DNA of 64,000 bases. Source: Omphiscola glabra (lineage: Eukaryota > Mollusca > Gastropoda > Lymnaeidae). Below are positions 16,913 to 50,009 of this stretch, piece by piece. The stretch spans positions 22,694,597-22,758,596 of the forward strand of contig OZ024807.1 of the NCBI GenBank assembly GCA_964017045.1. Reading direction: 5' to 3'. The stretch's first letter is position 1. Each line of letters opens with the position of its first letter. Under the pieces are notes generated by a model. The model worked only from the letters and a program-made list of their open reading frames with translations. It was not told the origin of the DNA and did no database searches. A program made the translations under genes and the position numbers.

Positions 16913-17140
16913 CTAAGAAGGCACATTATTTGTCAAATTCATTTTGTCAACTTCCCCATACCCCAAACAGAGTTTTAAAAAAATTAATAAAATCATCCAC
17001 GGGATTGTAAGCCACTTACTTACGCAAAAACAATTTTTTTGCATTTTAAATGCTTTGTTCTTATTTAAATGAGTGATAAGTGCATTAGTGGATGCTATTT
17101 GGATATGTAGTTTCGCTGCACAGATTGTATTAAACGGCAT
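16913..17140 (-). other. ORF shared by both Helitron-like elements
   Basis: A 75-codon ORF starts MPFN and is 60-odd residues long where alignable with 46987-47190 of element B. Only about seven residues differ there. I recognise no family. The ORF ends in unrelated sequence in the two copies, and GTAAGT occurs within it. It may be a captured exon or chance. Confidence 0.3.
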
Positions 17141-17849
17141 TTTCGTATTAAAAGTATATTTAAAGGTTAGGTTTTTTTTTTTTTTATTAATTTATAAATT
17201 TCATAAATGTATATTTTTGGAAAAAAATACAAGTAAAAATTTATTAAACGTTAAAAATAAAAAGCAAAAATGTTATTTCATTTTTTAAATTGTAGCAATT
17301 TAAAAAGCAATCTATAATATTTATTAATTTTACTTTTAGGAAGGTGGAAATACATTATCAATTTGATTAGGCGCGGTTATTAAATCAGATAAATTTTTGC
17401 ATTGAATAAATAGACAATTTGAGTTCTGACGTCATTTGCGTTATTATTTAGAACAAATTAGTTTTATTTTTATTACGCAATATTTGGAACGTACTTAAAA
17501 AATGCATTAAAATCAACAGATGTTTTGGTGTCCCCGATAAATGTGATTACAGCGTAATTCTTTGATTATAATTTGTTTTACTAATTTTCATAACTTTCAA
17601 CCACATATAAAATGTTTAAAATAGTTCCTTAGTTGTTACTCCAGATTTATTTGTAATTTATATTATTAATACTTAAAATTTTATTAAAATTAAAGCGAAT
17701 ATACAATATATTTTTCGCATTACCATTAAAATAATAGTAGAAAACTATGATTTTTTTTAAAAATGGGAACGTATTTAAGTCGTATCGGTTCTTTGTGAGT
17801 TACGGTCTGCATATATCATTCTTATATAATAGATGTATTACTACATCAT

Positions 17850-20800
17850 TGCTATTCAAAATCACAACACATTTACAAAGCTATATCCGATTCTAAAATG
17901 CGTCACAAAATTCAAGCTTATTTATAAAAACAACAAAAATACTCTCTACACTAAACATGCAAAAACATGTTTTTCTCTGCTCTTGCTACAAATTGATGTC
18001 TGTTGGCATTTGTTCAAGGGCGGTTGAGTTAATAGATCCGATTGAAATTATTTTGATAAAGTGTGTTAAAGAAAACAAAACGAATTTAAGGACATCGGCC
18101 CATGCGAAATATTGTAAAATGTTGTTCTAATTTAGAAACATTTGCGGGAGCACGCATATCAATTCACCAAAGTTTTTATCGCAATCGGATGAATGGTATA
18201 GGAATGCATACGATAATTATATAGATAATATAAGGGTGGAAAACGAATAAAGGCCCCCTGCCACAAACGGAATATTGTAGAATTGTTGTATTACTTCAGA
18301 AACATACTTATTATATCACAAAATTAAAAAAAGAGAAACATATTACTGAAGTTGTATCGCATTCAGATAAATGGTATAGGAGTGCATACGGATATTATTT
18401 TTTACAAAGCTCATATAAGAAAAATAACAATTTTGGGGCCAACGGCCAAAAACGGATTATTTTAAAAGTGTTGTAACTACTTCAGAAACCTAATTATTAT
18501 GTGACACACACAATTTAATGTCGCTATTTGTATTTGATTAAAAATCTATCCATCCACACATTAGCTCTGTTTAAAATTTTAATTGTATAGCTCATATAGG
18601 AAAAATAGAACACAGGGCCCCTAGCTCAAAACAGAATATTTTAAATGGTTGTAATAATTTGAAAAGCTTTGCGGACGTGGGTAAAACATTTTACTAAAGT
18701 TTTATCGCATTCAGATAAATGATATAGGAGCGCATACATAAATTACTTTGTACAACGCTCGTAAAAGAAAAAAAAAAGAATTTGGGACCAACGGCTGAAA
18801 ACTGAATATTTTAAAAGTATTGTAATTACTCATTAACATGCGCGACTTTATGGACAACGTTTCAACAAAGTTTTGTTGCAATCGCATGAATGGTGTAGGA
18901 GCGCATACGGTTTGAAATTATATTTATATAGCTCATATTGGAAAAATAGAACATGGGGCCCCTGGCTCAAAACTGAATATTTTAAACGGTTGTAATAATT
19001 TGAAAAGCTTTGTGGGCGTGGGAGAAACATCTAACTAAAGTTTTTACGCATTCAGATGAATGGTATAGGAGCGCATACCGAAATTATTTTGTACACAGCT
19101 CATATAAGAAAGAAAAAGAATTTGGGGCCAACGGCTGAAAACGGAGTATTTTAAAAGTATTGTAATTACTTATTAACATGCGCTACTTTATGGACAACCT
19201 TTCAAAAAAGTTTTGTTGCAATCACATGAATGGTGTAGGAGCACATACGGTTTGAAATTATATTTATATAGCTCTTATAAGAAAAAACGAACATGGGGCC
19301 GCTGGCTCAAAACGGAATATTTTAAAACGGTTGTAATAATTTAGAAACCTTTGTGGGCATGCTCGCAACATCTCGTCAAAGTTTTAGCGTATTCGAATAA
19401 ATGGTGTATGAGCGCAGACGAAACCTATTGTTTACAAAGCTCATATAAGAAAAAAAAAACGATTTTGGGCCAACGGCCAAAACGAAATATTTTAAAAGTG
19501 TTATAATGACCCAGTAAAATGCGCGAGCTTATGGAATAGAACTCTCCAATGTTTTGTCGCAATCGCATGAATGGTGTAGAGCGCATACGGTTTGAAACTA
19601 TATTTATATAGCTCATATAAGAAAAAACGAACACGGGGCCCCTTGCTCAAAACGGAATATTTTAAAACGGTTATAATTATTTCCAAACCTTTGAGGGCAT
19701 GCTTGCAACATTTTACCAAAGATTTAGCGCATTCAGACGAATGGTGTAGGAGCGCAGACGGAAATATTTTTTACAAAGCTCGTATTAGAAAAAAAACGAA
19801 CGAAGGGCCAACGGCCGAAAACGAAATAATTGAAAAGTTTTTTAATGACGCAGTTAAATGCCCAGTTAGGTTGCCTGCAACTCACGAAAGTTTTTTTTGC
19901 AATCGCATAAATGGTGTAGGAGCGCATACGGTTTGAAATTATATTTATATAGCTAATATAAGAAAAAACGAACATGGGGCCACTGGCTCAAAACGGAATA
20001 TTTTAAAACGGTTGTAATAATTTAGAAACCTTTGTGGGCATGCTCGCAACATTTCGTCAAAGTTTTAGCGTATTCGAATAAATGGTGTAGGAGCGCAGAC
20101 GAAACCTATAGTTTACCAAGCTCATATTAGAAAAAAAAACGATTTTGGGGCCAACGGCCAAAACGAAATACTTTAAAAGTGTTATAATGACTCAGTAAAA
20201 TGCGAGAGGTTGTGGAATACAACTCTCCAATGTTTTGTCGCAATCGCATAAATGGCGTAGGAGCGCATACGGTTTGAAACTATATTTATATAGCTCATAT
20301 TAGAAAAAACGAACATGGGGCCCCTGGCTCAAAACGAAATATTTTAAAACGGTTATAATTATTTCCAAACCTTTGTGGCGTGTTTGCAACATTTTACCAA
20401 AGATTTAGCGCATTCAGACGAATGGTGTAGGAGCGCAGACGGAAATATTTTTTTAAAAGCTCGTATAAGAAAAAAAACGAATGAAGGGCCAACGGCCGAA
20501 AACGAAATAATTGAAAAGTTTTTTAATGACGCATTTAAATGCCCAGGTAGGTGGTTAGCAACCCACCAAAGTTTTGTTGCAATCACATAAATGGTGTAGG
20601 AGCGCATACGGTTTGAAACTATATTTATATAGCTCATATTAGAAAAAACGAACATGGGGCCCCTGGCTCAAAACTGAATATTTTAAAACGGTTGTAATAA
20701 TTTAGAAACCTTTGTATGCATGCTCGCAACATCTCGTCAAAGTTTTAGCGTATTCGAATAAATGGTGTAGGAGCGCAGACGAAACCTATAGTTTACCAAG

Positions 20801-24596: not shown

Positions 24597-24688
24597 TCAA
24601 CTGATAGAGTAGATGGTGACGATAATCAAAAGTGCAAAAGTATCGTCACGTTGTTCATGTTCGACAATTGATGCTGCACTGACACCTC
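24597..24688 (-). CDS. Ig gene exon 11, hydrophobic C-terminus
   Basis: Phase-1 acceptor (GAAAAG before 24688) opens an exon reading GGVSAASIVEHEQRDD, then TFALLIIVTIYS and TGA. Thirteen hydrophobic residues are short for a membrane span. The exon may instead splice onward at a weak GTTGAG, or the tail may act as a GPI-type signal. This is the least certain exon of the model. Confidence 0.4.
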
Positions 24689-27600
24689 CTTTTCAGAGAT
24701 GGAAATGACAAGAAAAGTATAATTTACATTAATTTTTCTATGTTTTTTGCAGTACATGACCGGTTTTGTATTTTTCATTGTACTCTCGTATTAATACTGC
24801 TTTCAAAATTAAGAACAGAAAAATGACTTAACAATACCAGTCACTTATATTTAAATAACATAAATTCCTTGAAATGCTTTAAACAATTGATGTTTTACTT
24901 ACCATAATTCAAAGAGAATCTGTATTCTAAATCACTTTCATTTCCATTTCCAAAGACTACAGTGTAGTTTGTGAAATAGTCAGGTTGTATATTTGAAAAA
25001 TTTAAAACAATCAACCCATTAGGGTTATGTCCCAGTTGGTACATCACAGTATATCCAATGAGAACATTATGCGTTTCAAGACCAGAATGTCGTAACAGCT
25101 TATAGTGACTTGGTTCAGGATATCCAAAGACTGGTATAGAGACATCAAACCATGCCCCGACGTTTGTAGTGAACACATATTTTGTTTCATTAGTGACAAT
25201 TAATTGGAGTGGACCTATATGGAATATATATATATCTATATATGCATACATGTATATATATGTATATTATATATATTATATAACATTGCATTTATTTTAT
25301 AAATTTTACTTACTCAGTGTGAATGATACAAAAGCAGAACTTTTACAAAACAAAAAGAAATGTTTCTATTGAATGTGTCGTAAAAGAGAGAGAGAAAAGG
25401 TTAGATAGTGAAAGAGACATTAATAGAGGGAGAGAGACAAAGATAAATATAGAGATATACTGATAGTGGAAATAATATCTAAGAGAACAAAGAAAGATAA
25501 AAACTATTTAAAGTGATACTATGAATTACAGATATAGAAAGGGGACGGAAATTGTGTGATGTTGAAAGAGAGAGCGAAACAGTGATATTACGATACTTGT
25601 GATAAGAATAATGATAAAAATATGGAGATTAAAAAACTGAAGAAACAATACATAAATGGTCTAATTCAATTGATAATTTTAGAATACGTCCGAGAGGAAT
25701 AACCTAAGATTATGATGGAAAATAATGACGGAGAAACATAAAAGCGACTGAGAAAGTTTTGATTCTTGAAATTTTGAAAATGATTGAATGATTGATGATG
25801 TGTATAAGACCACATTTATTTCACAAGTTGACATTAATTGTGAGATTTATTCTAAGGCATGTCTGCCACAAAATAGGCACATTATATAATTACACACACA
25901 CATAAGAAACGTACAGACAATTTTACGGCATGTTATCATTTACATTTCAAAATGGCTCAACGTTTTCTAGATGGTTTTATTTTTGTTTAACTAATTTTTT
26001 TTATTCACTTTTTTAAACATTTTTAAATTGAATTGCATTTTGAAAATACATTTTTTTTCAGATTTTTTTTTTTTTTCTTTCATTTTTTTCTTCTATTGTG
26101 ACAACTTTTGTTCCACGTGGACTTAACGTATAGCGTAAATTTCCATTTCCAGGATATTCTAGTGTTTCAGCTGATCTGAGTTATATTTGCTTTTAAAATG
26201 ATTTGTCTTGTAGTGTCAATAAATGCTTCTTATAGATACAAAAATGAGATCTGGAACAACCAGTTGCAATGGGTTGTTGATCGTGCCAAAGCAATCGAGA
26301 TAATTATGTATTGTATAATCAACGTATCACGCAAATCTATTATGACACTGTCCTGCTAATCTATGATATTGCCCTACACGCGAATAACGAAATCGTTCTA
26401 AAAGTAAGAAATAAATGCATTATTAAGAAACAAATAAAAAGCTATTATATTTATAATTTCGGACAGATGAAAATCCATTCAGTCTTTCTAAAGACTGAGT
26501 TGACATAGTGTAGCACGGTTGGCAATGTGTGCCATGTCTGATGTATCTTACACTTAGAATATAATCGTCAGGAATTGTAAATAATACTTGTATTACACAC
26601 TTTGCCTCTAACATATTCTAAGACTTACATTTCACAAAGATTTCAAGATGCGACTCCAGTGCTTTATTGAAATATCCTTGTGTAGCCAAACACGAGTAAA
26701 CACCACCGTCATGGCATGATTCTATTTTAAAAGTAAAATCATTTGACGTCCAATAAACCATTTCAACTCTGGTACCTTGCATTGTTACACCCGGATGTGG
26801 GTACTCGGACGTATGACATTCGAGAGTGACGTATCTGCCAACTTCTACTACAGTCACGTGATGGTGTCGGTTGGCTGTGAAACTCAGACTGTCAGCTTCA
26901 ACTAAAATAAAAATGACCAAATTAACATAACGCATCACATACATATATGTATATATGTAAAACAGAAACGGATGTGTGTATGTATGTAAGTATGCGTTTA
27001 TGTATGTATATATGCATATAAGTATGTATGTATGTATTTATGTAAGTATGTATACATGTATAAATGTATGCATGTATGAATGAATGTGTACATGTATGTA
27101 TGTATGTAAATATGTATACATATATTAATGCATACAATATATGGTATATATGTATGCGTATGTATGTATCTATGAATGTAACTATGTAGAGATAGATGGA
27201 TGAACACAAGAATGAAGTCAGATTTAAAAGATTGAAATTCAGAGAGTTTATGTCACCTACATTTCTTTGATTAATACAGAAAAAAGACGGCATAAAAAAA
27301 CCTAAGCACACAATGGATTCAATATGCACTACATGCTCATCGAATAATACCTTAATCCCCTTCACATGAAACAGATGATAGACATATATACCCTAAACTC
27401 CGCTGCTGAGGTATAATACTATTTTAAAACTGACGACTTCACATGTGTTAGGCCAAAACAAGTTTATTTTCAAAAACAGATCAAACGATTCGACGTCTTG
27501 AATAGAACCATCGGTAATGGAGAACAATGGACGCTGAGCAACAATGAAATATACTTTTTTTTAAAAAAACAAAAAAGGATAAACTTCAACTATACATAAA

Positions 27601-30600
27601 CAACAAGAATGACGGGTTAATATGTAGCCCACGGGCTTCATGTGTTTACTTGAAATGTTCAATGCTTTCAGTAAGATATTGAGGGATTAATAATATTTTT
27701 ATCATTAAATAAACAAGATGTCCACAAAACGATTCTTAAACTTTGAATATCAATCTTTACAGCGTAAACATGTCATCATTTACTAATATTATTAACACTG
27801 AGCTTTATTGGAAGTAATTTTTTTTTAAGTGATCTCAAATAATGTATATTATAATTCATGAAGAAGTATATTGATAAAAAAAATCAGTGATATCATACGC
27901 ATTAGAATATAACTTTAAAAATATTAACACTTTAATGTTAAGACCCCTATTGCTGTATGAGTCAGCGCTACCACGCTCTATGTCGATATATTTGCGCACT
28001 TAATTTGCTAGAAAAAAGGTGCGTTGATTACTAAAATATATTTTAAATTTAGCATGTGTTTTGATTTAATTATTTACAATTACGACCATAATTTGGGTTA
28101 TTAAGCAAAATAAATAAAATATTAAAAATGATTTAAAAAAATGAAATACATACATAAAGAGTGAAACAAATGAATAATGTAAGATGGACCTATGACTTTC
28201 AACAAGGAATTTGCAGTTCAAAATATATATTTTTTTAAACTGTCAAAACATGTTTCATGTAAGACAATATAATTCGTATTAAAAGCGTGTGTTCATATTC
28301 CACACGTAATTATTTCTTATCGATTTTAAGCTGTATATCTCACAGAACGGTAAGAGAAATAATAGAAACCTTGTTAGCTAATAGGAATCTGTGATTCATA
28401 TGCATTACCATATCGAGGTCCATTCTATGTAAATCCTTTGTTTTGGCATCCTCTAATTCTATGGATCCAGGATCGTAGGTAGCTAAAAGATGTTCGTCAC
28501 TAAACAGACATCACTAGCAAAATAAAAAAAAAAAAAACTCAGTCTAGGATTGATTTAAAACATGTTTTTTGCAAAATCATTAGGATGTATGTTTATGATC
28601 AATAAACGTGTAAAAGTCACTCACCAACGCGTGGAGTGGTAATTGTTGTACCGGGTAAATTACTCATCAGTACTGATGCAGGCCGACACGTAAAGTGTTG
28701 GTCTTTTTCTGAAAATGAAATTGATTTATCAGAAATCTAGAATTTAATAAGAAAGTATAAGTTCATATAGTTTTTTTTTTTTTGTTGATACTTCAAAATG
28801 TTTTAATTTGAAAATTGTATTTTTTTAACACAAGATTATTCATTTTTATTTATAATGCTTTCTTCTCAAGCATTGTCAAAAAATTATTTTCTTCATTTCC
28901 TTAAAAAAAATATATAAAAAAAAAAAAAAAATTCTATTTCGCTATGAAAAAAAAAAAAAAAAAAAAAAATGTGAATGGCGTTTGTGTTTGTTTTAACTTT
29001 TATTTCATGAATTGTCGTCAGTATATTTGAACTGGGAGATCTAAAACAGTATAAAGAGTAACGAACAGTAATACTTTTTACCTGAGTCAGACCGCTTATA
29101 TGGGTTTACTTAAGAACATATAACCAAAGCCAATGTAGCCCACAAAAAATGAAGATGATATATGTTTAGATTTGCTATATATCTGAGAACATTGCATATA
29201 TACCTGTATAAAAGTCGTCATAGGTCAGCATACTACCACTATATAAGTCTGTGTCAGGACTTAGATTCGACGACCACTGTACTTTGCCTGGTGGGTTTCC
29301 CAGATCATCTAGGAAGCACTCGCATGTTGTTTGTGGACTTTTCGGTAAAAAGTGTTTTCTTCCATAGAGGTCCCTCAATAAGGATGTATCATATTGAGTT
29401 CGACATAGTAGTGTTTTCCGTATTTTTGGTAAGTCTATATATGTATATATATGTTTTTAATTCAGAAGATACATTTGCAGAAATGAAAAGTTTAATGTAT
29501 GTAATTTATTAAAATTACTTTTGCACATTTAATTATATATATATATAAAAAATTAACAAATATAAAAGCAATATTTAAAAATAAACCATAGATAATGATA
29601 GGAATCTTAAAGGGCAATGCGAATCCTTAAAACTTCAATTATTATTTATTTCGGTGAGATACCTCAGCATCATTAAAGAAAATCATATCTTTCAATGTAC
29701 AGTAGAGCATTGATTTTCAAAATTAATTTGGACAAGGGGTTAATCGAATAACCATTTTTTTCAGATAAACAAATACTTCAACCCAAAGATTGATTTAAAA
29801 AAATTAGTGCGTGTAATACAAACTATTCTTACCTTATAGTTATCTATTATCATGCATTGTAATACAGTTTAATAACCTTACCGCACGGTATATCTAGGTC
29901 ATTAGATTGTTGTCTAAAAAAAAGTGTCAACTGGAGCTTAGTCTAAAATCTGAAAACAAAGTTGTCTTTGAAGGCTTTTTATGCTGAGATATCAATTTAC
30001 ATGACACGGTCGCTGAAGACATTATATAAGTATGGTCACTGCGTGTATGGTCACTGCGTGTATGGTCACAGCGTGTATGGTCACTGCGTGTATGATTAGT
30101 GCGTGTATGGTCACTGCGTGTATGGTCACTGCATGTATGGTCGTTCTTTAGATAACACGTTGACTCCGAGGGTTCTTAATAATGTTCGCCATTTGTTCAC
30201 CCGATTCAGCATTATGCACATTGACAAATGTGATTTAAATAATAGTAAACGACGTGTCGGGCATTTGGGACAAGCGATAGTTCTAATAACTGCAAATAAA
30301 ATAATGAATGTTTGGAAAATGAACACTCTTAATGTACACTGTTATCGATTACATGATGTAACTCACACAAAATCAATGGAGACAAATAGTCATTGGGAAC
30401 ATGTGTAAGATTTCCATTAGTGTCTTTGGTTACAATGGTGATACGAAATTGATGAGATCCTATGCCCAGATCTATTGTTTTCACATAGAGGTTGATTTCA
30501 TATATTGTTTGTTCAGTGCCACTCCTATCAGCTTTGTTAAGCAGCATATGTTTTGTTCCATTGACTTGAACCAACGTTTCCTGTGGACAGATAACAAACT

Positions 30601-33600
30601 GGGCTATTAACACATATATAACTTAATATATATGACCATCAATTAAGTAAAAAAAAAACTTGTTCAATGTATATATTATATATATTCTGAGAGTCTGCAT
30701 GTGTATGTTTGTAAATTGATATATTAATCGATCAAGATAAAATCAAATAATAGATCGAAACCAAATTTGACATTGTCATTCTTCCTGACCAAAAGGTATT
30801 TTATTGATTTTGTCATAATAGCTTCATCACAAAGATGTAATTTTAAAAAAATAATAAATATTGTTATCATCAAATGTAGTGGTTAAAGATTAAACATAAT
30901 TTTCACATCGAATGACTTTAATGGACATTTATGTAAAGTTATATTTAGTAGAATTCTTTTTTTTTACTAAACACATATTGAGAACTTTGCCTTTTCAAAC
31001 GTTTATTAAAGTAATCTTTTCATTCTCGTTTTGTTTGATACAAACACATCTTAAATACAAGGTTTTTCATGCGCTTGGAAATAGTACGACATCAAAATGA
31101 TCACATAGTTTAAGCGCGTGCATACAGTTTGCTTTTCGACTCCTAGGAGCTGAAAATCATGGGAGCTCTTTTATTAATATTTTTTTTTTGGTGGAAAATA
31201 TGTTATACATTAGATGTGTGTGTGTGTGTGTGTAAGTAAGAATCATAATTTTTTTTTTTTTAATTATTTATTATTATTTTTTTTTTAAATTTAGCCTTAA
31301 ATCATCCTCTTATGAAACTAACTCTCTAAGTGGTATGGCGCATTTTACGATAATAAAAAAATGTCTCACGCGAAACGATTTCAGTCTTCAGCACATTTCA
31401 CTTTTAAAAACAAATTATTTGCATCTTTTACATTCAGTAAGAGCGTCTAAATTAAAAAAAAAATAAAATAAAAAAATAAATAAATAAATATGTTGTTTAT
31501 TTATATCAAATATTGACTCGGCAGACATCATTGTTTTATGCTTCTTAAGTCCCTGCAAGTCTTTATGATTTTCCTCAGATATTTCGAAATCAGATTTTCA
31601 GCTTAAAACCTATCTATGGAGTTCTAAAATGTATTTGAGCTATAAAAGAAGAAGCTATAAAATAAAGCTTTGGGCACAGTGCTAGACACTAAGTAAACAA
31701 ATGCGTGTAAGACTTACTTGGTATGCATGCCTTTTATTATCTCTTATAAAGAATAATTGAATTTTTAAAAATAAAAATGATATTTACACATTTTGAGAAT
31801 TTTCTTTTTTATTCTGTGGGGGGAGGGGTAAAATAAATAATCAAGTTAATTTTTGAGTCTTGAACTAATTTTAAAGGACCAATTTAAAAAAAAAAAAAGT
31901 TTCTTCGTTATCCAACCAAAATACTCATAAAGGTAAAATAATAGAGATTTAGAGATTAGGTTAATTTGGAGCCGACAGTAACAGTAAAATGTAAAAACAA
32001 ATGTATATTGGATTCCTTTGGAAAAAAAAAACTGTACGATATTTGTCTGAATTATTTTTGTAAAACAATTATCTGAGGAATAACAGAATTCGGCCTCATT
32101 TAATTAAATTAAATTTTCATTTTAAAATGATAAAAGTTCTCGTCTTCTGACTTTTGGGAATTTTATTTTTTATAGAACTTATTTTATTAGCAGGATTAGT
32201 CTTAAAATTAGATTTGTCTTTTTATAATTGAAATTAATTTGTGTTCCACTTTAATGAATAACGTTTCATAACATTTTAAATGAAGTTTGCACATCATTTC
32301 GACAAGCAAATATCTAAATGGCTTCTTTGGCGTGCCAATGAATTTCTAATCTAGGAATTAGTTATTCATCTAATTTCATTTCCACCTTACTATAAAATGT
32401 TTCTTGTAAAGAGATAATAACATGTTTCAGCGTTAGTCCCGAGCAGTGTAACACACAACAAGTTAAGTCACATGACAATATTATTTATTCCTAAACACGA
32501 TGGAGTAGGGATTTTGATAATAACGAATATCACGAGAAAAAGCAAGAACTAATTTTTGTATCGGAAGAAGAACTCATGATTTTTTTGTAGAGAGAGTGTG
32601 CACGAAATAGTCTGCGTTGAAGGACGTCAGTAGAATATTAGTATGAGGTGAATTTGACGATTTAATAATATTCAAAGTGTATTGTATTCTTTATACTGTA
32701 ACTTTGTCAGTTACAAGGATGTTACAAAGCCAAGGAGTTATTTTATCATTCATCTTGTAATAAAGTACCGTGTTAATTATTAAGTGATTTTTTTCAATTA
32801 TTTAATTAGTATAAGTTATACGTAGCTACGGGCAGGTCATCAATTATATGCAGTATTAATTAACATACATAAAGTATGAACACTTCATGTATTGTTACAA
32901 ACAGCGTTTAGTCAAAATATGAATTGGTTTATTTTAGGAGAAAATCAATAGTTTAATGTCATTATTAAACACCAGGGAAAAAATGATTACACTATTTTAA
33001 ATGACGTATATTCATTATACGATTCCTATACAAAAGCTAAAAATTGTTAACTCTTAATTTGACTACTGTCATTGTATAATCACATGGTCCTGTTACATTG
33101 TCAGACAGTAGATCTGCATAGAAGTCTCGAGAGAAAAAAACATTGTCTCATAGTGCTTTTGTAGGCGAGTTGCTGGCAAAACATGGTCTCACATTCATAA
33201 CGAGCAACTGAGACAAATGTTTGGTGACATTAAAGAAACACAGTAAATGGTCCAAAAATAAATTAATTAGTTGGGGAAACTCTTCAGAATGCCTGTCAAA
33301 AACCTGTATTGCATGCGTACAATTGCAGGAAAACCCGGTTTTAAGAAACTTAACTGAAATATAATTGGCTGTAAATTCAATATATATATATATATATATA
33401 TATACCTTAACAACATTGTTTACGTTATGTTGCTATTTCTAGCTATATACAGTTTAGACTATGGGCGATTGCTTTATTTTACATTAAAATAGTTAATATT
33501 ACAAAATTGTCAGTTGCCTTTGAATATTAAAACTTTTTTTGTCGACTTTAATTTATGTGATTGCAAAATATAAAATGTAAAAACTGTTAAAATGAAACTT

Positions 33601-36600
33601 TATAAATATTCCCTTTTTTAAGTCATTATCTTACATTTGTCATGATCTCATAATCGAAGCCAGCAATATCATCTGAAGTGTTATGATGACATTTCACATG
33701 GACAGCCTTGTCGTTGACCTCGTAGTAGGTGCACCCAGGAAAAATAATGTTTGCTGTTAAGTCGTTCAACCCTAAAAAAAATAATAAAAACGTTGACTGA
33801 TGCAATCACGTCTTGAAATTTATATACCCGAAACTGCAGGCTATTTTTATCGTAATTCAAAGAAATTATGAAAGAAAGGGTCAATACATCAGCTAGAAGA
33901 AAAATATAACCATTACTATGATGCTATTTTTGTGTGTGAGTATGTTAGTTTAAATGGTTTTCATTTTTAAATGCATTTATTGAATACATGTATGAGTCCG
34001 TTTATTTAAGCAAATACAATTTAATTTGAAGTTTTTATGAAAAGTCTTTTATTCGGGTTTGGAAATTTATGTTTTTTTGGGTTATTTTTATATACGAATT
34101 TTAACTATATCTTATTATTTATTATTTTAAATGGTTGAACGATTTTTTTGTTATTATGTTTCGACATTTAAACAAAAACGATTAATAAAAAATACATATA
34201 TGTATCAAACATATTATACATATATTTTGTGTATTCACTTATTGAATATTTATTTTATTTCAATTTTCAGAGTTTCGGGAAAAGCAGCAACACTTACGCA
34301 GTACTAATGGAGACGTTAGTTTATTCGAGGATATGGGTGCAGCTCTGGGTATCAAGACTACCATAGTAACTCCGAATTTATGATACCCTGTTCCTAGAAA
34401 TGTTGCTGGCAATGTTAAAGAACATTCCGTGAAAACCATAGGTTCTCCAAACAGATTTGTGAACTTCTGCTGTGCAATTTCTTTGAAAAGCTTGATGATC
34501 CTGGTTCCCTTAAATCAAAAACACAATCATTTAAAAAAAAAACAACATTATATACAACATTTTATAGGACATTTCTATTTGCCATAATTTTTTAAACTTT
34601 GCACACCCAAATCACTTCTTTGAAAATGTGCTTAAATTAGCGGAGGAAATATGATATATTTTGTGGACTTACATTCGTGTATAACACGAACTTGCAAATA
34701 ACGACATGTATCAAAAGCTTTGAAATGCATTCTACATTAACCTCTCCTTCTCTGACTGTAGGGAACGTACATATGGGATCAGACAAATAACTTGTATTTT
34801 TATCTGCGAAAAACACACAATGATAATTTAACACCTTGATTATAACATATTTTAAACAATTATTAAAGATAGGTTTGTAAGTAATTCAATAAAGCATTAT
34901 GAAATGTATGAATTAGAGTTACTACGATTCCACTCTTAGTAGCAAACGTAAAAATAGTCACACGACATTTTGTATAATACTTAGAACAATGCCAAATGGT
35001 AAAGGAATAAAGAGGGTGTAATACACAAAACCCAGAGGAAACCTTAAAGCAGACTAAGGCTTTAATGGATTGATGATGTGAAAAATGATCTACAGCAGCT
35101 GGGAATGTAAGCATGGAAAGGAAAAACAATAGTTCGGTCAGAGTTAAAGTAACGTGTGGAGGAAGGCCAAAAGGCTGCACAAGCCGTAGCGTCATAGGCA
35201 TGGATAGATAGAGAAATATTGTTTGTTGAATTACACAACAAGAAAAATATATATATATATATATATCAAATGATTAAATCAGGCTCAAAATGTAATCGTT
35301 TTGAAAAATCCTTGCACACGTAATACGAGTTCTTGAACGACAATTTTAAGCTAAATACAAAAGTAAATTTCATAATCTCTTACCAGTTATGTTTATCTGT
35401 ATAACATCGCTACCGACCAATGTTTTATTCTTGTCAGCTGTTTCTCTTAACAAGGTAAAAAACTGAATGTTATGCAGCCCGGGACCAAGTTCTTGAATAT
35501 AAATAGATAATGACAACGATCTATAATAAACGTGTCGTCCAGGCTCTTCGTCATCTTTATCAGAGTAATACGAAAAAACGTCAACAATTACTTCCCTTGA
35601 ATCTGTAGAGGATCTCAAAATGCCAATGTTCTGGGGAAAAAATAAAGGTAAAAAAGAATTAAATTTAAAATAAAAATAAATAAACACACACGAAAAAAAA
35701 ATGAATAAAATAATTGAATAGTCTCTTTTAATTAAATATTTTAAATTGTGCATATTGATTATACGTTTGTTATAAAGAAGCAAACAAATTAATTAAGTAT
35801 TAAACAACCCGTAAAACTAATTTTTGCCCAAAATCGTGAATGTGCCTTTTTTTTGTTATAATTTCTATTTTATATTAATCCTATAATGTCCACCCACTTG
35901 TACACCACATATTTATTGCAAACCATTCAGAAAATATATGTTACGCTTAAATCGACATTGTGATATTTTTAAACCATCTCATTTAGCGATCTTGTTTGTT
36001 TTTCTGAAAGCAGTGTCATGATAGTTCCTGCATAAACCCATTGAAAAAGCATTTAAAAACTGATAATAGTGGGTTGGTATGTGCCAAACTATTGATATAA
36101 TATGTTGTCATCGGAACGTGTATGTGTCAATGTTAAGCTTGATATTTTGAAGGAAAGTTGGTAAATTAGATTCAAATCAACATTAAAAAAAATAGTACGC
36201 TCTCTAAAGGAGTTGGAATAGTTTATGATATATCAACGTTTAGAGGTGGATAATTTTTCACATACATAACCATTCCAGTGCAAAAGTTAATTTTTACTTT
36301 GTACATGTATATATTTGCAATTTTTTGCATATATCAAATAAGAATGTTCACTAATATTAATTATATTATTAATTTTTATTAAGTTGAAATAACACAATTT
36401 TATTTCTAAGCTTTGTTACTGATATTTGAAATTCATATGGTAGTGTTACAGTATCAATCTTATTCTCTGAATAAAAGTCTTTAAAAAAATCACTTTCGAT
36501 ATGAAATGTTTGAAAATCGAACAGCTGGAAAAAACAAGAATGGACACATATCAGAACAAATAAAGTTATCCCACCGTTTTGTTCCATCCCAATTCATCTA

Positions 36601-39600
36601 GTACATGGTTTAAAAAAAAAACAGAGCGATTGATTTGGACATCTATTCAGAATGACTGTGAACAAAACTTTACTGCTGGCGTACAATGGCAGGCCTTTTT
36701 GTTTTGGGGAATATTAACTGAAATTTGAGTGGGACCTAATTCAATATTTAGAAGTGAAATAATAAATGTTTCCTTTTAAAGGAGAAAAATGAATTGTAAG
36801 TATTCCTTTAGCGAAGTGGTTTTTTTTTTATTTTTTTTAAATAGGTATTTAAACTTACTTGTCTGCTGATAAAAGCAAGGTTTCTCGGCTGGTATACAGT
36901 TATATGCGATTAAATATGAAACATTCAAGTCAGTATTGAATATGTATTTGGTCAATTGAACAATTTTTTTAATTGAAACGATCGGAAAAGGAAAACGTTT
37001 TTAAAGTATTGCCTTTTTGGAAATCAGGAAATTAATGTTTTAAATAATTAGATAATTAGTTTTTTTTTATCAACAGACTATCTGCTACATCAAATTCTAA
37101 GTTTTCTTAGTATACAAAACAATAATATGCCTAATTTGTATGATCTTGTTAATATACAAAACAATATTATGCCTAATTTGTATGATCTTGTTAATATACA
37201 AAACAATACTATGCCTAATTTGTATGTATGGCATCTTTCCGTCTACAAGAGACGATAGATTATCTTGTCTGGTTGCAGCTCTTCGTGTGGCTAATGAGAC
37301 CGATCCTTGAATGGCAGTCTCTTGTGCATGTCCCGCACACGAATGCAGTGGAGTAGTGTTTTCTTTCCTTTCTCCGTGCTCTCTTCACAGCCGCTTCCTC
37401 CGAATTTGAGATGTTGATGTTAACCGCCTTCATATCTCTTTTGCAAATGTCTATGTATCTGAGACGAGGCCGTCCAACTGACCTTTTCCCTGTCGCCAGC
37501 TCGCTGTAGAGCACGTCCTTTGTTATGCGACCAGGTTGCATTCGCTTGACGTGCCCAAGCCAGCGGAGGCGTCTTTGGATTAAAAGGGCTGGGACGCTGC
37601 ACATATTTGTGTGAGACAGGGCATCCGTGTTGGGTCTTTTTCCAGCCATTTGAGGTCAAGGATGCGGCGCAGGCATCTGAGGTGGAAGCCATTGAGCCTT
37701 TTTTAGTGCCTGTTGCATGTGGTCCAAGACTCACATCCATAGAGGAGTGTGCTCAGTACGCTGGCCTGGTATACCTGCAGCTTAGTTCTTGTTGTGAGCT
37801 TGGCATTGGACCAGATTATTTTCTTCAATCTCGTCATGACAGTTTCGGCCCTCCCTATCCTACCACTTATCTCATCCTCCATTGAGAGGGTGCTCGGAAT
37901 ATTCGACCCTAGATATGTGAATCTGTCAACAGCATCCAAGTCGCAGTCGTCGATGGAGATAGTGGGGGGAAGAGTCAGCGTCCTGAGCCATAATGTTGGT
38001 TTTCTTTAAGCTGTTGATCATGCCAAACTCTTTGCAGGCAGCGGATAAACTGGATACAAGGTCTATGGTTGACCTATCGGCTCGAAAGCCACATTGCGAT
38101 TCTGGGAGTACACGCGATGTTAGGGTCTGCAAGCGTGTTAATGCAACTCGGGCGAAGGCCTTTCCAACTATGCTAAGAAGGAAGATTCCACGATAGTTGT
38201 TGCAGTCACTCTTGGCTCCTTTGTTCTTGTACAATGTAACAATGTTTGCATCTTTCAACTCTTGTGGTAGCTGTCCCTGTTCCCAGCACATAGTAAGGAT
38301 ATCGTCCAGGGCAGCGGTTGAGACATGGTTCATTTTTGCGTATAGTTCCAAGTAGTGCTCAATCCAACGTTTGAGTTGTTTATCCCGATCAGTAATAAGT
38401 TCCTCTGTTTTTGACATTAAGGTGCAGTCTTGGAGGTCAGAGGCCCTGGTGCTTGTTTTATATTCTCGTACATAGCCTTTACATTTCCTCTATCAGCAGC
38501 TGACTGTATGCTGGAGCTTAGATTGAGCCAATATGTGTTAGCGTAGTGGCGAGCTGCCTGCTGGGTGTTTTTCTTGGAACTTTTAAGAGTTTGTAGAGTG
38601 GCTGGGCAAGGCGTGTCTTTATAAGCCAAGAGAGCCTTTCTTTTAGCATCAGTGACATGCTTCATTTCCTGCAAGTGAGCCTCGAACCAATCTGCACTTT
38701 TGCGTTCTCTCTTGCCAAATGCCGTGATAGCCGAGTTATAGATGGTGTCCCGCAGATGTGACCACTTGGTCTCAATAGTGTCTATTGGTGGCATTTGTTC
38801 AAGAGCTTCTTGTAGTATATGATTGTATTCGTCCGTTCTCTCTGGGTTATTGGTGGAGTAGGTGCTTATGCGAGGTTTGCCCTTGTTTTTTGTGTGATAC
38901 AGTTTCTTTGGCAGTAACCTTATCTTGCTAGCCACTAAGGAATGATCTGAGTCGCAGTCTGCGCTATGGTAGCTGCGTGTGAGGAGGACACTAGCCAGTT
39001 GTGTGCGTCTTGTGATTATTAGATCTAATTGGTGCCAGTGTTGGGAGCGGGGATGCCTCCATGACACTTGGTGAATAGCCTTACAGTTGAAGTAGGTATT
39101 TGTTACACATAGTCCATGTAAACAGCATAGTTCCAGTAGCCTCTGCCCGTTAGAATTTAGCCTGCCTCTTCCGAAATGACCAAGGCATGTAGGCAAGGCC
39201 ATGTAATCATTTCCCACTCTCGCATTGAAGTCACCCAATTTGTATGATATTGTTAATATACAAAACAATACTATGCCTAATTTGAATGATCTTGTTAAAA
39301 ATGCACTGTTATTAAGGTCGGTTAATGTGCTTTTTCAAATAAAAGGGAGAGAGTGGTTGACGTTGACATGACACAATTAGCTTACCGGGTGACATCTACG
39401 CCAGTGTGGCCTTTCCATACTATCGTACATTGTACATTTTTATGAATAAAGGAACAAATAAAATTGATTTTAATATCAAGTGAGCCAAAATATAATATTT
39501 AAAACATTTACAAGTACTTACATTTATCCTTACGAAGCAAATCGTGGATGGATGCACAAAACGTGTCAAAGCTTCAAGTGTCAAGTATGTTCCATTATGT

Positions 39601-39640
39601 AGTAGCTCAATTGACTGCCATTTTATTTCTTGAGGTTGTT
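24597..39640 (-). CDS. Multi-Ig-domain surface/secreted protein gene (11 exons, 5' incomplete)
   Basis: Spliced model, 5' to 3': 39640-39522, 35630-35384, 34803-34673, 34508-34298, 33771-33635, 30580-30367, 29434-29204, 28708-28625, 26901-26629, 25214-24903, 24688-24597. All junctions are GT-AG, phases agree at every join, and 683 codons stay open to TGA. Residues 1-353 form three split domains, each a 1-0 exon joined to a 0-1 exon. Residues 354-458 are a domain split 1-1/1-1 with CECFLDDLG, KVQW and FTC. Residues 459-549 are a clear Ig domain (TLEC, VYW, DGGVYSC). Residues 550-653 are Ig-like without the Cys pair. Residues 671-683 are hydrophobic. Many NxS/T sites fit an extracellular protein. 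The signal peptide exon was not found. Ligand and function are unknown. Confidence 0.7.
24903..25214 (-). CDS. Ig gene exon 10, Ig-like domain
   Basis: A 312-base exon, phase 1-1, acceptor TATAG, donor GTAAGT. It encodes about 104 residues with a PLQLIVTNET start, FGYPEPS, and TNYTVVFGN near the end. The pattern is that of an Ig or E-set sandwich lacking the usual cysteine pair. Four NxS/T sites. Confidence 0.65.
25380..26620. other. Intron 9, no other features
   Basis: Purine-rich (GAGA-type) tract at about 25385-25560, then AT-rich DNA with T-runs. No element was recognised. Confidence 0.5.
26629..26901 (-). CDS. Ig gene exon 9, canonical Ig domain
   Basis: A 273-base exon, phase 1-1, acceptor TTTTAG, donor GTAAGT. 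It encodes a canonical Ig domain: TLEC (B strand), VYW (C strand) and DGGVYSC (E-F turn with F-strand Cys). The clearest domain of the gene; it fixes the strand and the family. Confidence 0.85.
26940..27190. repeat. Degenerate (TATG)n microsatellite
   Basis: Imperfect TATG/TATA tract inside intron 8. The minus-strand His/Tyr/Ile-rich ORFs over it are artefacts. Confidence 0.85.
27200..28610. other. Intron 8, no other features
   Basis: AT-rich DNA. No mobile element or exon was recognised. Confidence 0.5.
28625..28708 (-). CDS. Ig gene exon 8, second half of fourth domain
   Basis: An 84-base exon, phase 1-1, acceptor TCATTTTCAG, donor GTGAGT. It reads KDQHFTCRPAS, supplying the F-strand Cys, and ends in a Pro/Thr-rich linker (PGTTITTPR) before the next Ig domain. 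Confidence 0.7.
29204..29434 (-). CDS. Ig gene exon 7, first half of fourth domain
   Basis: A 231-base exon, phase 1-1, acceptor ATATAG, donor GTATAT (weaker than the others). Contains TTCECFLDDLG and KVQW, the B-strand Cys and C-strand Trp of an Ig fold, completed by exon 8. The exon start is chosen by phase and an open frame; the acceptor tract is poor. Confidence 0.6.
30028..30142. repeat. 15-bp minisatellite in intron 6
   Basis: About eight copies of GTATGGTCACTGCGT with few changes. The inverted homologous segment near 8695-8712 has only one copy-like stretch (GTACAAGCAGTGACC on the other strand sense). The array therefore expanded on this copy only. Confidence 0.8.
30367..30580 (-). 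CDS. Ig gene exon 6, second half of third domain
   Basis: A 214-base exon, phase 0-1, acceptor TCCACAG, donor GTGAGT. Contains TIYEINLYVKT, then GIGSHQF and VTKDTNG. Exons 34298-34508 and 35384-35630 share the layout hydrophobic strand, G.G.H, strand. A decayed inverted copy is at 8292-8501. Confidence 0.75.
31100..33240. other. Intron 5, no gene seen
   Basis: AT-rich intron with A/T runs (31245-31290, 31455-31490) and a (TG)n at 31217-31233. No exon or element was recognised. Confidence 0.5.
33260..33610. repeat. Intronic repeat related to 36630-36800
   Basis: Blocks TTCAGAATG.CTGT, GCGTACAAT.GCAGG and TTAACTGAAAT occur in the same order at both places. This suggests the split-domain modules multiplied by tandem duplication together with their introns. 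Confidence 0.6.
33635..33771 (-). CDS. Ig gene exon 5, first half of third domain
   Basis: A 137-base exon, phase 1-0, acceptor TTTTTTTAG, donor GTAAGA. Contains FPGCTYYEV and VHVKC, the same Cys-to-Cys pattern as exon 3. Confidence 0.7.
34298..34508 (-). CDS. Ig gene exon 4, second half of second domain
   Basis: A 211-base exon, phase 0-1, acceptor TTTAAG, donor GTAAGT. Contains FTECSLTLPAT, GTGYHKFGV and SPLVL. It aligns with exon 6 through G.G.HKF/HQF and the SPL(V/I)L end. Confidence 0.72.
34673..34803 (-). CDS. Ig gene exon 3, first half of second domain
   Basis: A 131-base exon, phase 1-0, acceptor TTCGCAG, donor GTAAGT. Contains DPICTFPTVREGEVNVEC, an EG.V..(F/E)C signature like the single-exon Ig domains at 4585 and 49647. 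Confidence 0.75.
34905..35215. repeat. Unclassified GC-richer insert in intron 2
   Basis: Richer in GC than the intron around it, with a distinctive AGGAAGGCCAAAAGGCTG segment ending in GATAGATAGA. It reads like the body and tail of a short interspersed element, but no family was recognised and no target duplication was seen. Confidence 0.3.
35384..35630 (-). CDS. Ig gene exon 2, second half of first domain
   Basis: A 247-base exon, phase 0-1, acceptor TTCCCCAG, donor GTAAGA. Contains YYRSLSLSIYIQELGPGLHNIQ, best read as the strand then G.G.H turn of the second-half family. It has an acidic insert (SDKDDEEPG) missing from exons 4 and 6. Confidence 0.72.
36369..36524 (-). pseudogene. Possible decayed or alternative second-half exon
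   Basis: A strong acceptor (TTTTTTCCAG) opens a phase-0 frame containing FDFQTFHIE and LPYEFQISVTKL. This resembles the start of exons 2, 4 and 6, but the frame runs to a stop with no G.G.H turn and no donor. Exon 1 joins exon 2 in frame without it. It is either an eroded module or an alternative terminal exon. Confidence 0.45.
36630..36800. repeat. Intronic repeat related to 33260-33610
   Basis: Partner of the intronic repeat described at 33260. It lies just upstream (on the minus strand) of the possible decayed exon. Confidence 0.55.
37103..37226. repeat. 42-bp tandem repeat split by a retrotransposon
   Basis: About three copies of a 42-bp unit (TATACAAAACAATACTATGC plus 22 bases). One more copy lies at 39237-39297, on the far side of the inserted non-LTR element. 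Confidence 0.85.
37227..39236 (-). mobile_element. Truncated non-LTR retrotransposon (APE endonuclease/RT)
   Basis: Minus-strand element flanked by the 10-bp direct repeat AATTTGTATG (37217-37226 and 39237-39246). The 5' truncated end codes the C-terminal part of an APE-type endonuclease: GDFNARVG near 39230, HQLDLIITRR and the catalytic SDHS. RT follows (38417-37926) up to LPESQCGFRADRST, then jumps to KEFG and SLKKTN. The segment holding the catalytic Asp-Asp box is deleted. Next are FTYLGS, LLYGCESWTT, RRLRWLGHVKRM and GKRSVGRPRLRY, then a C-terminal C2H2-like finger (VCGTC...H..SC). Frameshifts separate the blocks. It belongs to the CR1/Jockey/I-type group; clade not resolved. Confidence 0.85.
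39522..39640 (-). CDS. Ig gene exon 1 of model, first half of first domain
   Basis: A 119-base exon, phase 1-0, acceptor ATATTTAG, donor GTAAGT. Contains IKWQSIELLHNGTYLT and ICFVRIN. It lacks the paired cysteines of exons 3 and 5. Phase 1 at its start means an upstream exon, presumably the signal peptide, exists beyond 39640 but was not recognised. Confidence 0.55.
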
Positions 39641-43079: not shown

Positions 43080-44073
43080 GTGTCATAAGTAGACAAAGTA
43101 ATACGTTTTAACTAAAACAATGAGTTCCGTCATAAGTAGACAAAGGAATACGTTTTAACTAAAACAATGAGTTCCGTCATAAGTAGACAAAGGAATACGT
43201 TTTAACTAAAACAATGAGTTCCGTCATAAGTAGACAAAGGAACACGTTTTAACTAAAACAATGAGTTCCGTCATAAGTAGACAAAGGAACACGTTTTAAC
43301 TAAAACAATGAGTTCCGTCATAAGTAGACAAAGGAACACGTTTTAACTAAAACAATGAGTTCCGTCATAAGTAGACAAAGGAACAAGTTTTAACTAAAAC
43401 AATGAGTTCCGCCATAAGTAGACAAAGGAACACGTTTTAACTAAAACAATGAGTTCAGTCATAAGTAGACAAAGGAACACGTTTTAACTAAAACAATGAG
43501 TTCCGTCATAAGTAGACAAAGGAACACGTTTTAACTAAAACAATGAGTTCCGTCATAAGTAGACAAAGGAATACGTTTTAACTAAAACAATGAGTTCCGT
43601 CATAAGTAGACAAAGGAAAACGTTTGAACTAAAACAATGAGTTCCATCATAAGTAGACAAAGGAATACGTTTTAACTAAAACAATGAGTTCCGTCATAAG
43701 TAGACAAAGGAATACATTTTAACTAAAACAATGAGTTCCTTCATAAGTAGACAAAGGAATACGTTTTAACTAAAACAATGAGTTCCGTCATAAGTAGACA
43801 AAGGAATACGTTTTAACTAAAACAATGAGTTCCGTCATAAGTAGACAAAGGAATACGTTTTAACTAAAACAATGAGTTCCGTCATAAGTAGACAAAGGAA
43901 TACGTTTTAACTAAAACAATGAGTTCCGTCATAAGTAGACAAAGGAATACGTTTTAACTAAAACAATGAGTTCCGTCATAAGTAGACAAAGGAATACGTT
44001 TTAACTAAAACAATGAGTTCCGTCATAAGTAGACAAAGGAATACGTTTTAACTAAAACAATGAGTTCCGTCAA
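43080..44073. repeat. 47-bp minisatellite, about 21 copies
   Basis: The unit begins CATAAGTAGACAAAGGAATA and is 47 bases long. Copies are nearly identical. A GGAACACG variant is clustered in copies about 4 to 10, with the GGAATACG form on both sides, showing block-wise homogenisation. The array sits 400 bp from the 5' end of Helitron-like element B. Confidence 0.95.
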
Positions 44074-44509
44074 AAGCCATTACGTGAAAAATCGAGGTAA
44101 ATTTCCGAACTATAATTAGGTGGAAAGCCCCGTTACAATTTCCCGTACAACAAGGTGTCAAAATTATTTCTTTGCAGTTTCATAATTATTTTAATAAGTA
44201 TCTTATGTAACATTAAAAATAAGTTAAGTTAGTTAAATCACCCAACGGTTGAAAGCTATGATAATACTCTGGGGCACACATTATGATAACAAGAGATCGA
44301 AAGAATGACATCGCCTATGGTAATTCTAGCATAATATAGAAAAACAAAACTATGATTTTTCAGAATGACATACAACAACTGCTTATGGTATATATAGTAT
44401 CATGTAGAACAACGAAATATTCTATATCTAGAGTAAATAAATAACACAGAAAAACTATGTATGCTATTTTTAATCTATATATATAAAAATGAATGTATGT
44501 ATGTATGTC

Positions 44510-46080
44510 TGTTTGTCTCATATGCGCTCCCGCACCATTCATGCGATTGCAACAAAACTTTGGTGAGTTGTTGGCCACCTAACTGGGCATTTAACTGCGA
44601 CATTAAAAAACTTTTCAATTATTTCGTTTTCGGCCGTTGGCCCTTCATTCATTTTTTTTCTTATACGAGCTTTGTAAAAAATATTTTCGTCTGCGCTCCT
44701 ACGCCATTTGTCTGAATGCGCTAAATCTTGGGTAAAATGTTACGAGCACGCCCACAAAGGTTTGGAAATAATTAAAAACGTTTTAAAATATTCCGTTTTG
44801 AGCCAGGGGCCCCGTGTTCGTTTTTTCTTATATGAGCTATATAAATATAGTTTCAAACCGTATGCGCTCCTACACCATTCATGTGATTGCAACAAAACTT
44901 TTTTGAAAGGTTGTCCATAAAGTCGCGCATGTTAATGAGTAATTACAATACTTTTAAAATATTCCGTTTTCAGCTGTTGGCCCCAAATTCTTTTTTTTTT
45001 CTTATATGAGCTGTGTACAAAATAATGTCGGTATGCGCTCCTATACCATTCATCTGAATGCGATAAAACTTTAGTTAGATGTTTTTCCCACGCCCTCAAA
45101 GCTTTTCCAATTATTACAACCCTTTAAAATATTCTGTTTTGAGCCAGGGGCCCTATGTTCTATTTTTCCAATATGAGCTATATAAATATAATTTCAAACC
45201 GTATGCGCTCCTACACCATTAATGCGATTGCAACAAAACTTTGTTGAAAGGTTTTCCATAAGGTCGCGCATGTTAATAAATAATTAAAATACTTTTAAAA
45301 TATTCCGTTTTCAGCCGTTGGTCCAAAATTCTTTTTTTTTTTTAATTGGGCTTTGTACAAAATAATTTCTGTATGCGCTCCTATATCATTTATCTGAATG
45401 CTATAAAACTTTAGTAAAATGTTTTACCCACGTCCGCAAAGCTTTTCACATTATTACAACCGTTTAAAATATTATGTTTTGAGCCAGGGGCCCTATGTTC
45501 TATTTTTCCTATATGAGCTATACAAATAAAATTTCAAACAGAGCTAATGTGTGGATGGATAGATTTTTAATCAAATACAAATAGCGACATTAAATTGTGT
45601 GTGTGACATAATAATTAGTTTCTGAAGTAGTTACAACACTTTTAAAATAATCAGTTTTTGGCCGTTGGCCCCAAAATCGTTTTTTTTTTCTTTTATGAGC
45701 TTTGTAAAAAATAATATCTGTATGCGCTCCTATACCATTTATCTGAATGCGATACAACTTCAGTAATATGTCTCTCTTTTTTAAATTTTGTGATATAATA
45801 AGCAGGTTTCTGAAGTAATACAACAATTCTACAATATTCCGTTTGTGGCTTGGGGCCTTAATTCGTTTTCCACCCTTATATTATCTATATAATTATCGTA
45901 TGCATTCCTATACCATTCATCCGATTGCGATAAAAACGTTGGTGAATTGATATGTGCGCTCCCGCAAATGTTTCTAAATTAGAACAACATTTTACAATAT
46001 TTCGCATGGGCCGATGTCCTTAAATTCGTTGTGTTTTCTATTACAAACTTTATCAAAATAATTTCAAACAGAGCTATCAA
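44510..46080. repeat. 340-bp dimer array inside Helitron B
   Basis: The marker ACCATTCAT or its variant recurs at about 44534, 44873 and 45213, again 340 bp apart. There are fewer dimers than in element A, so array copy number accounts for most of the size difference between the two elements. Confidence 0.82.
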
Positions 46081-46986
46081 CTCAACCGCCCTTGAACAAA
46101 TGCCAACAGACATCAATTTGTAGCAAGAGCAGAGAAACCACGTTTTTGCATGTTTAGTGTAGAGAGTATTTTTGTTGTTTTTATAAATTAGCTTGAATTA
46201 TGTGACGTATTTTAGAATCGGATATAGCTTTGTAAATGTGTTGTGATTTTGAATAGCAATGATGTAGTAATACATCTATTATATAAGAATGATATATGCT
46301 GATCGTAACTCCAAAGAACTGATACGATTTAAATACGTTCCCATTTTTTAAAACAATCATAGTTTTCTTCTATTATTTTAAGGAACTCGAATCAATGGTA
46401 ATGAGAAAAATATATTGTATATTCGCTTTAATTTTAATACAATTTTAAGTATTAATAATATAAATTACAAATAAATTTGGAGTAACCACTAAGGAACTAT
46501 TTTAAACATTTTATATGTGGTTGAAAGTTATGAAAATTAATAAAACAAATTATGATCAAAGAATTACACTGTAATCACATTTATCGGGGAAACCAAAACA
46601 TCTGTTGATTTTAGTGCATTTTTTAAGTACGTTTCAAATATTGCGTAATAAAAGTAAAACTAATTTGTTATAAATAATAACGCAAATGACGTCAGAACTC
46701 AAATTGTCTATTTATTCAATGCAAAAATTTATCTGATTTAATAACCGCGCCTAAAAAAATTGATAATGTATTTCCCCCTTCCTAAAAGTAAAATTAATAA
46801 ATATAATAGATTGCTTTTTAAATTGCTACAATTTAAAAAATGAAATACAATTTTTGCTTTTTTTTTTTTACGTTTAATAAATTTTTACTTTTATTCTTTC
46901 CAAAAATATACATTTATGAAATTTATAAATTAGTAAAAAAAAAAAAAAAAAAAAACCGAACCTTTAAATATACTTTTAATACGAAA

Positions 46987-47190
46987 ATGCCGTTTAATGC
47001 AATCAGTGCAGCGAAACTACATATCCAAATAGCATCCACTAATGCACTTATCACTCATTTAAATAAGAACAAAGCATTTGAAATGCAAAAAAATTGTTTT
47101 TGCGTAAGTAAGTGGATTACAATCCCGTGGATGATTTTATTAATTTCTTTAAAACTCTGTTTGGTGGAGGGGGAAGTTGTAATTCAATAG
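46987..47190 (+). other. ORF shared by both Helitron-like elements
   Basis: Partner of the ORF at 16913-17140, starting MPFNAISAAKLHIQ. The differences are nearly all amino-acid-changing, which argues against purifying selection. Confidence 0.3.
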
Positions 47191-48115
47191 TTTAATTTGC
47201 ACATGGCAGCATACTATACGTCTCAAAATGAATTTGACAAATAATTTGCCTTCTTATGTACATATATATGGGGGATAGGAATTAGGGTGTGTACAATTTT
47301 ATATCTTTAAATCCTATGATATTACTGTTGTGAAAAATAGATGCTATATTCTCATTTTACGAATTAAGAAAATCAATGACGTTAACACAACGTAAATACA
47401 TTTATAAAAGTATATCCATGAATATCAAAACCCATTCATTTTACAAAGAATTACCAGTTTTGGACAGGGGCCCAATAGTAGTTTTTCTTTATAATATGAG
47501 CTATTTAAATATAATTTCCGTATGAGTTCCTATACTATTCATCTGAATGCGACAAACTTTCAGTGAGTTGTTGTGTGCAGGCCCGCGCTAGGTTTCTAAA
47601 GAAGTGCAACTATTTTACAATATTCCGCTTTGGGCCGGGGGTCTTAAATTCTTTTTTTTTCTTATATGAGCTATGTAAATATAACGTCAAGCAGAGCTAT
47701 TGCATAAGTGGGGGGAATTACATTAAATATAAACTGTGACATTTCATTTTGTATATGTGACTTAATAAATAGGTTTCTGATTTAGTACAAATATTTCACA
47801 ATATTACTTTTGGGGCCGGGGGCCCAAAATTTGTTTATATGTAATACATGAGCCATATAAATATAATTTCAAACATAGCTATTGCATGGGGGGATCAATC
47901 GCTATAAGTTTTGGGACTAAATTTGGAAAATCCATGCTTCCCACACGGACAGCTGCGTGTGGTCTGCTGACACTTCTTAAAACCTTCTAAATAATTCGAA
48001 TACGCTCCAGACGGTTAAAAAAGGTGTTTATTAGAAGAACGTACAAAAAAATTATTAAAACACGGACACTTTACTTCGATGAGTGGCATTGCAAAGCATG
48101 CCGGGTACTCGCTAG

Positions 48116-49375: not shown

Positions 49376-49406
<31 letters not shown>

Positions 49407-49646
49407 TTGTTATTTCCTACATATACATTTGTTTGCTTTTTATTTTATTATTTTCTGATTCTAATTTTATTTTTATAAATTTTTGTTTGCCTTTTGATAC
49501 AAATAGTAATTCTTTTTTTTTTTAAAATATATAAATATGTTTATACTTTTAAGTTAACTTTTAAAAACAATTAAAATCAGATGTGTCCGAATGCAGGAGA
49601 ATAACGCATAAGAAACTTATAGACGCACATATTAAAAGATGCTTAC

Positions 49647-50003: not shown

Positions 50004-50009
50004 CTGCTG

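Follow-up and report, generated by a model that had tools for sequence, protein, structure and literature searches.

An Ig-like gene of the snail Omphiscola glabra with repeated split domains, probable member of an undescribed, locally duplicated receptor family

The 64,000-nucleotide stretch of the Omphiscola glabra genome analysed here (assembly GCA_964017045.1, contig OZ024807.1, positions 22,694,597 to 22,758,596 of the forward strand; hereafter the window) carries on its minus strand a gene for a protein with immunoglobulin (Ig)-like domains. A preliminary description made from the letters alone had proposed eleven minus-strand exons with agreeing phases and 683 open codons, and all of these are present. 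Rebuilding the exons (A to K) from the window sequence gave agreement at all ten internal phases and a joined frame of 683 codons, corresponding to 682 residues and a stop, which is open throughout. All acceptors are AG and all donors GT; the acceptors of exons A, G and J are preceded by an AT-rich stretch and not by a good pyrimidine tract. The threefold repeat of a 1-0 exon and a 0-1 exon shows the phases as claimed (exons A to F) and is followed by four 1-1 exons (G to J) and exon K, which runs from phase 1 to the stop. Exons A (39640-39522) and B (35630-35384) encode the first and second half of split domain D1, exons C (34803-34673) and D (34508-34298) those of D2, and exons E (33771-33635) and F (30580-30367) those of D3. 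Exons G (29434-29204) and H (28708-28625) form a two-exon domain, which contains cysteine, exon I (26901-26629) encodes a canonical Ig domain matching Pfam Ig_3/Ig_2, exon J (25214-24903) a membrane-proximal domain, the best conserved part, and exon K (24688-24597) is the C-terminal exon at the place of a transmembrane exon. An AATAAA motif lies beyond exon K at 24407. The order first given for the part behind the split domains (1-1/1-1 domain, Ig domain, tail) holds, except that a further 1-1 exon, J, sits between the Ig exon and the tail.

That exons A to K form a real gene follows from homology and not from phase agreement, which is not decisive by itself, since every border allows many AG/GT choices. 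When the joined protein was searched against some 5.8 billion database proteins (6380 candidates scored), the one match was a Lymnaea stagnalis protein of 865 residues (P0001), with 36% identity over 99% of the query (E 2.2e-101). With P0001 as query (at least 7996 candidates scored) four Lymnaea proteins, P0001 to P0004, were obtained, the others being 46-63% identical to P0001, and a third search with a family profile (6851 candidates scored) yielded no further member. Two Ig proteins of a fish and a coral (P0005, P0006), which cover 6-7% of the query, were dropped. Since the window protein recovered only one of the four known Lymnaea paralogs, such a search misses relatives, and the results do not speak for an absence of the family elsewhere. 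All four Lymnaea genes are listed with a longest contig of 2,094,378 bases, which suggests, but does not show, that they probably lie on one contig.

The gene does not start at 39640, as had been supposed. Indeed, the 5′ exon that the preliminary description had asked for was located by tblastn with P0001 (E 1e-14): exon N1 (50006-49647, minus strand, phase 1-1) encodes an N-terminal Ig-like domain and had been missed, as had its copy N2 (4938-4585, minus strand; tblastn E 1e-18). N1 ends in phase 1 and thus joins exon A in phase, and the N1|A junction aligns to the Lymnaea proteins without a gap; the start of N1 is uncertain by three bases owing to a tandem AG acceptor. From N1 to K the frame comprises 802 residues with AG/GT borders and without stop or frameshift.

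The four Lymnaea proteins, annotated as Ig-like domain-containing proteins, share with the window protein the domain order and nearly all conserved cysteines. The similarity is clear in exons N and B to J, weak in A and doubtful in K. When each exon was compared with the matching Lymnaea region and with 1000 shuffles, N and B to J (ten of the twelve exons) scored above all shuffles, N1 with a z value of 25.6, whereas the score of exon A was reached by 3 and that of exon K by 30 of the 1000 shuffles. The eleven junctions from N1|A to J|K were inspected within ±10 residues: seven align without a gap to every one of the four Lymnaea proteins, F|G does so with one of them, and at B|C, D|E and J|K the lengths differ by 1 to 8 residues. 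Exon G is longer than its Lymnaea counterpart, with 59-65 of its 76 residues aligned. Exon H shares 15 of 27 residues with P0004 and 7-10 with the other three, and exon J, for which no Pfam match was found, is identical to the four proteins in 42-53 of 103 residues.

By eye, P0001 to P0003 consist of a signal peptide, the N-terminal Ig-like domain, D1 to D3, the two-exon domain, the Ig domain, a beta domain and a transmembrane helix followed by a tail of only some 9 to 27 residues. Membership in the Ig superfamily, as first claimed, is borne out by profile matches: the joined protein scores 30.1 bits with Ig_3 (cut-off 30), exon I alone 31.5 bits with Ig_2 (cut-off 27). Ig_3 was reported in all five family members (the window protein and P0001 to P0004) at E up to 10, and no fibrinogen domain appeared among the Pfam matches of these proteins up to E 10, in line with the first reading. 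In the N-terminal domain six cysteines are invariant in the five proteins. Pfam Ig families matched this domain only weakly, none of them in more than two of six members (best E 0.0036), and the best match of a profile search against the PDB had an E value of 0.85.

A first structure model, built from P0001 and its three paralogs, was poor (mean predicted local distance difference test score, pLDDT, 37.1). A second model, for which single window exons other than A and G were added to the alignment, reached a mean pLDDT of 55.8; some of the added fragments may be misplaced. The N-terminal domain was modelled at a pLDDT of 85-92 in 8 of 12 blocks. In a fold search with the model, residues 22-260 matched T-cell-receptor chains and residues 517-666 matched NEGR1. 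The 50 matches listed by Foldseek for the whole model are mostly long multi-domain Ig chains with template modelling (TM) scores of 0.09-0.20 by query length, which is uninformative on single domains.

In a profile comparison D2 and D3 are clear repeats of each other (99.7%, E 1e-25). D1, a weaker repeat, matches in its second half only, with 88% against D3 (41 columns) and 67% against D2 (27 columns). In D2 and D3 the intron follows the identical alignment column, and in the model of P0002 the intron place falls between two strands in each split domain, following residue 176 (strands 168-174 and 177-179), 301 (292-300 and 303-309) and 411 (400-410 and 413-418). The repeats, the common intron site and its position between strands fit a duplication of exon pairs. 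Of the motifs noted at the outset, the G.G.H turn of the second halves is present in exons B, D and F. The first-half motif holds in part: the Cys..Cys pattern is found in exons C and E but not in A, and the EG in C only. The exon code as such is well supported, the repeated pair being real, but it is not by itself novel, as two exons per Ig domain are described for the chelicerate sDscams (PMC4835542). For FN3 domains a literature search yielded no usable account of their exon structure.

The cysteines of the split domains are arranged in an uncommon manner. In all ten copies of D2 and D3 the position of the putative F-strand cysteine is occupied by Phe, so the canonical B-F pair is absent, and all ten keep a cysteine in strand B and another in A or ahead of B. 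Among the 15 copies of D1 to D3 in the five proteins, cysteines in both the C- and the E-strand occur in eleven, none in two (P0001 D2 and window D3) and a single one in two (P0002 D1 and window D1); in D2 column 329 is that of the C strand, and another alignment places the cysteine of window D1 one column off. This pattern suggests a C-E disulfide, although five related proteins do not prove it.

No convincing Pfam match was obtained for the split domains, and a profile search of D2/D3 against the PDB gave chance matches only (best E 0.45). Pfam matches of D2/D3 to LysM2_NFP (best E 0.0032), MalQ_N, INTS7_C_plants and MtxA_IG-like, each seen in one or two of the ten copies, were taken as chance; those to LysM2_NFP and MalQ_N were below the cut-off where bits were shown. 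The FN3 profile matched none of the ten copies up to E 10 in hmmscan, which is weak for divergent domains. The model of D2/D3 is all-beta with an E-F turn, at a pLDDT of 37-71 per block and mostly 50-70, and the fold search barely covered this part. The proposed Ig type of the split domains is thus matched by an all-beta prediction of moderate confidence and not by the B-F cysteine pair, and Ig folds are plausible here, not proved. The most interesting part of the gene is this orphan split domain with its relocated cysteines.

Exons N1 and N2 are located within colinear duplicated blocks (3334-15008 and 48698-59391), the two largest of which are about 80% identical. Between N1 and N2 the nonsynonymous divergence (dN) is 0.136 and the synonymous divergence (dS) 0.213 by the NG86 method. 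N2 may be a relic, or it may open another gene whose remaining exons would fall outside the window. Furthermore, tblastn detected a decayed copy of exon F with in-frame stops in inverted orientation (8301-8500, plus strand), within DNA (7880-8605) that matches 31015-30248. It is identical to exon F in 162 of 209 aligned bases, and its flanks match in 293 of 399 and 82 of 103 bases. Local duplication of family members has thus taken place within the 64 kb of the window, which contain a pair of N exons in duplicated blocks and a decayed copy of exon F. Scans for a signal-peptide exon gave some candidates. The best by its donor (59571-59502) was rejected, being antisense to a reverse-transcriptase fragment (59314-59676, plus strand; RVT_1 E 2.6e-6, 27.7 bits, cut-off 29.6), and no candidate common to both copies of the duplicated blocks had a good phase-1 donor.

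Other repeats were observed in the window. The intron between exons A and B contains a degraded retrotransposon (37260-39334) with a reverse-transcriptase fragment (37929-38489, minus strand; RVT_1 E 2.8e-6, 27.6 bits, cut-off 29.6). Exons A to K are flanked on both sides by an inverted repeat (16041-19587 and 44521-48127) that is 92% identical over 3.6 kb and shows satellite units of about 170/341 bases. Tandem arrays are located at 2243-2922 (36-base unit, 18.9 copies, open in three frames, with Pfam matches that look like repeat artefacts), 43082-44076 (47-base unit, 21.2 copies, 97% matches) and 61195-61651 (40-base unit, 11.4 copies, 96% matches). An open frame of 133 residues at the window edge (2-400, minus strand) had no Pfam match up to E 0.1.

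A description of the family was not found in the open PubMed Central subset, and no named family came up, in agreement with the preliminary description. The FREPs and VIgLs of snails have an Ig domain at the N terminus, where the protein carries an Ig-like one, but the family described here has membrane-anchored relatives, and FREPs are reported to carry a fibrinogen domain (PMC7588048); two FREPs are reported from a Lymnaea immune transcriptome (PMC7919325). By description, the GRC/PTC1 and PTC2 proteins of the freshwater snail Biomphalaria glabrata are clustered single-pass surface proteins, with beta-rich ectodomains in GRC; most GRC proteins are reported with FN3, and the PTC2 proteins (166-530 codons) with no known domain besides the helix (PMC4361660, PMC7494358). 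Both clusters are also treated in PMC11426442. No GRC or PTC2 sequence was among the matches of our three protein searches. Biomphalaria resistance loci are described as including such clusters of single-pass surface proteins, the ligand being unknown (PMC4361660, PMC7494358), and PMC12297450 reports resistance mapped to other receptor types. In Biomphalaria sudanica clustered single-pass proteins with CTL, FN3, Ig or TMEM154 domains are described, and some of those in the diverse clusters on LG5 and LG16 carry Ig only of these four, which by description resembles the present family (PMC10875847). A similar likeness, again by description, exists to the Alr family of Hydractinia, clustered proteins with unusual Ig domains from a remote animal group; the same review lists MDM, an Ig protein of Lymnaea that has five C2-like domains (PMC11999971). 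Most likely, the family is an apparently undescribed, locally duplicated receptor family of snails.

We consider it fairly probable that the gene belongs to a locally duplicated family of snail surface proteins that bind a ligand outside the cell and act via a partner protein. The ectodomain comprises the N-terminal Ig-like domain, three related, predicted beta domains split in phase 0 at the turn after the third strand, the cysteine-containing two-exon domain, the Ig domain and the membrane-proximal domain. It would bind a microbe, a parasite or another cell, the short tail would imply action through a partner, and copies of the family arise and decay. The gene structure, the family, the domain order, the duplication of the N exon and one decayed exon copy are established, and the fold of the split domains is a prediction. 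Judged by its build, the protein could be a surface receptor for parasite or microbe recognition; ligand binding and an immune role are inferred from the anatomy and the company of the gene.

Several observations weigh against this interpretation. With a dN/dS ratio of 0.64 to 0.75 by three methods, the comparison of N1 and N2 does not indicate diversifying selection. The similarity between exon F and its relic does not exceed that of their flanks, and upstream of N1 none of the candidate signal-peptide exons in the window was convincing. The membrane exon of the window copy is weak and shortened: the hydrophobic end of exon K comprises 14 residues, and the best 19-residue hydropathy of the exon is 0.63, compared to 2.75-2.87 in P0001 to P0003, where a transmembrane helix is present. 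P0004 as annotated is also without a helix. At the thresholds used no other transmembrane exon was found downstream of J on the minus strand (24900-5000), in a scan whose plus-strand control gave one chance match. Given this shortened exon, the product of the window copy may be secreted or lipid-anchored, or the copy may be decaying. A recent pseudogene, or a variant that is secreted or lipid-anchored and has an open ectodomain but a lost helix, is possible but less likely than not. The hydropathy of exon K and the missing further membrane exon favour this, and its small residues, polar spacer and hydrophobic end are reminiscent of a lipid-anchor signal; the intact 802-residue frame from N1 to K with its regular borders argues against it.

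Membership in the same family is also compatible with a cell-adhesion or neural surface protein in place of an immune receptor. The best PDB matches of the family profile are contactin-2, NEGR1 and MDGA1, and a short tail suits adhesion as well as recognition. Nevertheless, the contactin matches depend mainly on the common Ig domain, and a recognition role is more in keeping with the local duplication, the decayed copy and the low conservation (36% to P0001) than a conserved adhesion role. We regard adhesion as rather unlikely. Very improbable is a use of N1 and N2 as alternative first cassettes of one gene. The two copies in colinear blocks and the precedent of the chelicerate sDscam genes (PMC4835542) would agree with it, but N2, on the same strand, is positioned 3′ of exon K, which makes its usual splicing to exons A to K impossible. 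Returning to the recognition receptor, a more far-reaching version appears rather doubtful: the split domains would represent a novel family of beta sandwiches in which A-B and C-E disulfides replace B-F, spread by exon-pair duplication, and would form a recognition-receptor cluster restricted to freshwater pulmonates, with a role like that of the Biomphalaria schistosome-resistance loci.

Trematode parasites of humans and livestock use freshwater snails as hosts. The conserved family described here is a candidate recognition receptor with domains that escape all profiles, and annotation by profiles sees one Ig domain only. The split domain would, provided that its structure is confirmed, serve as a useful example of an Ig-like fold with relocated disulfides.
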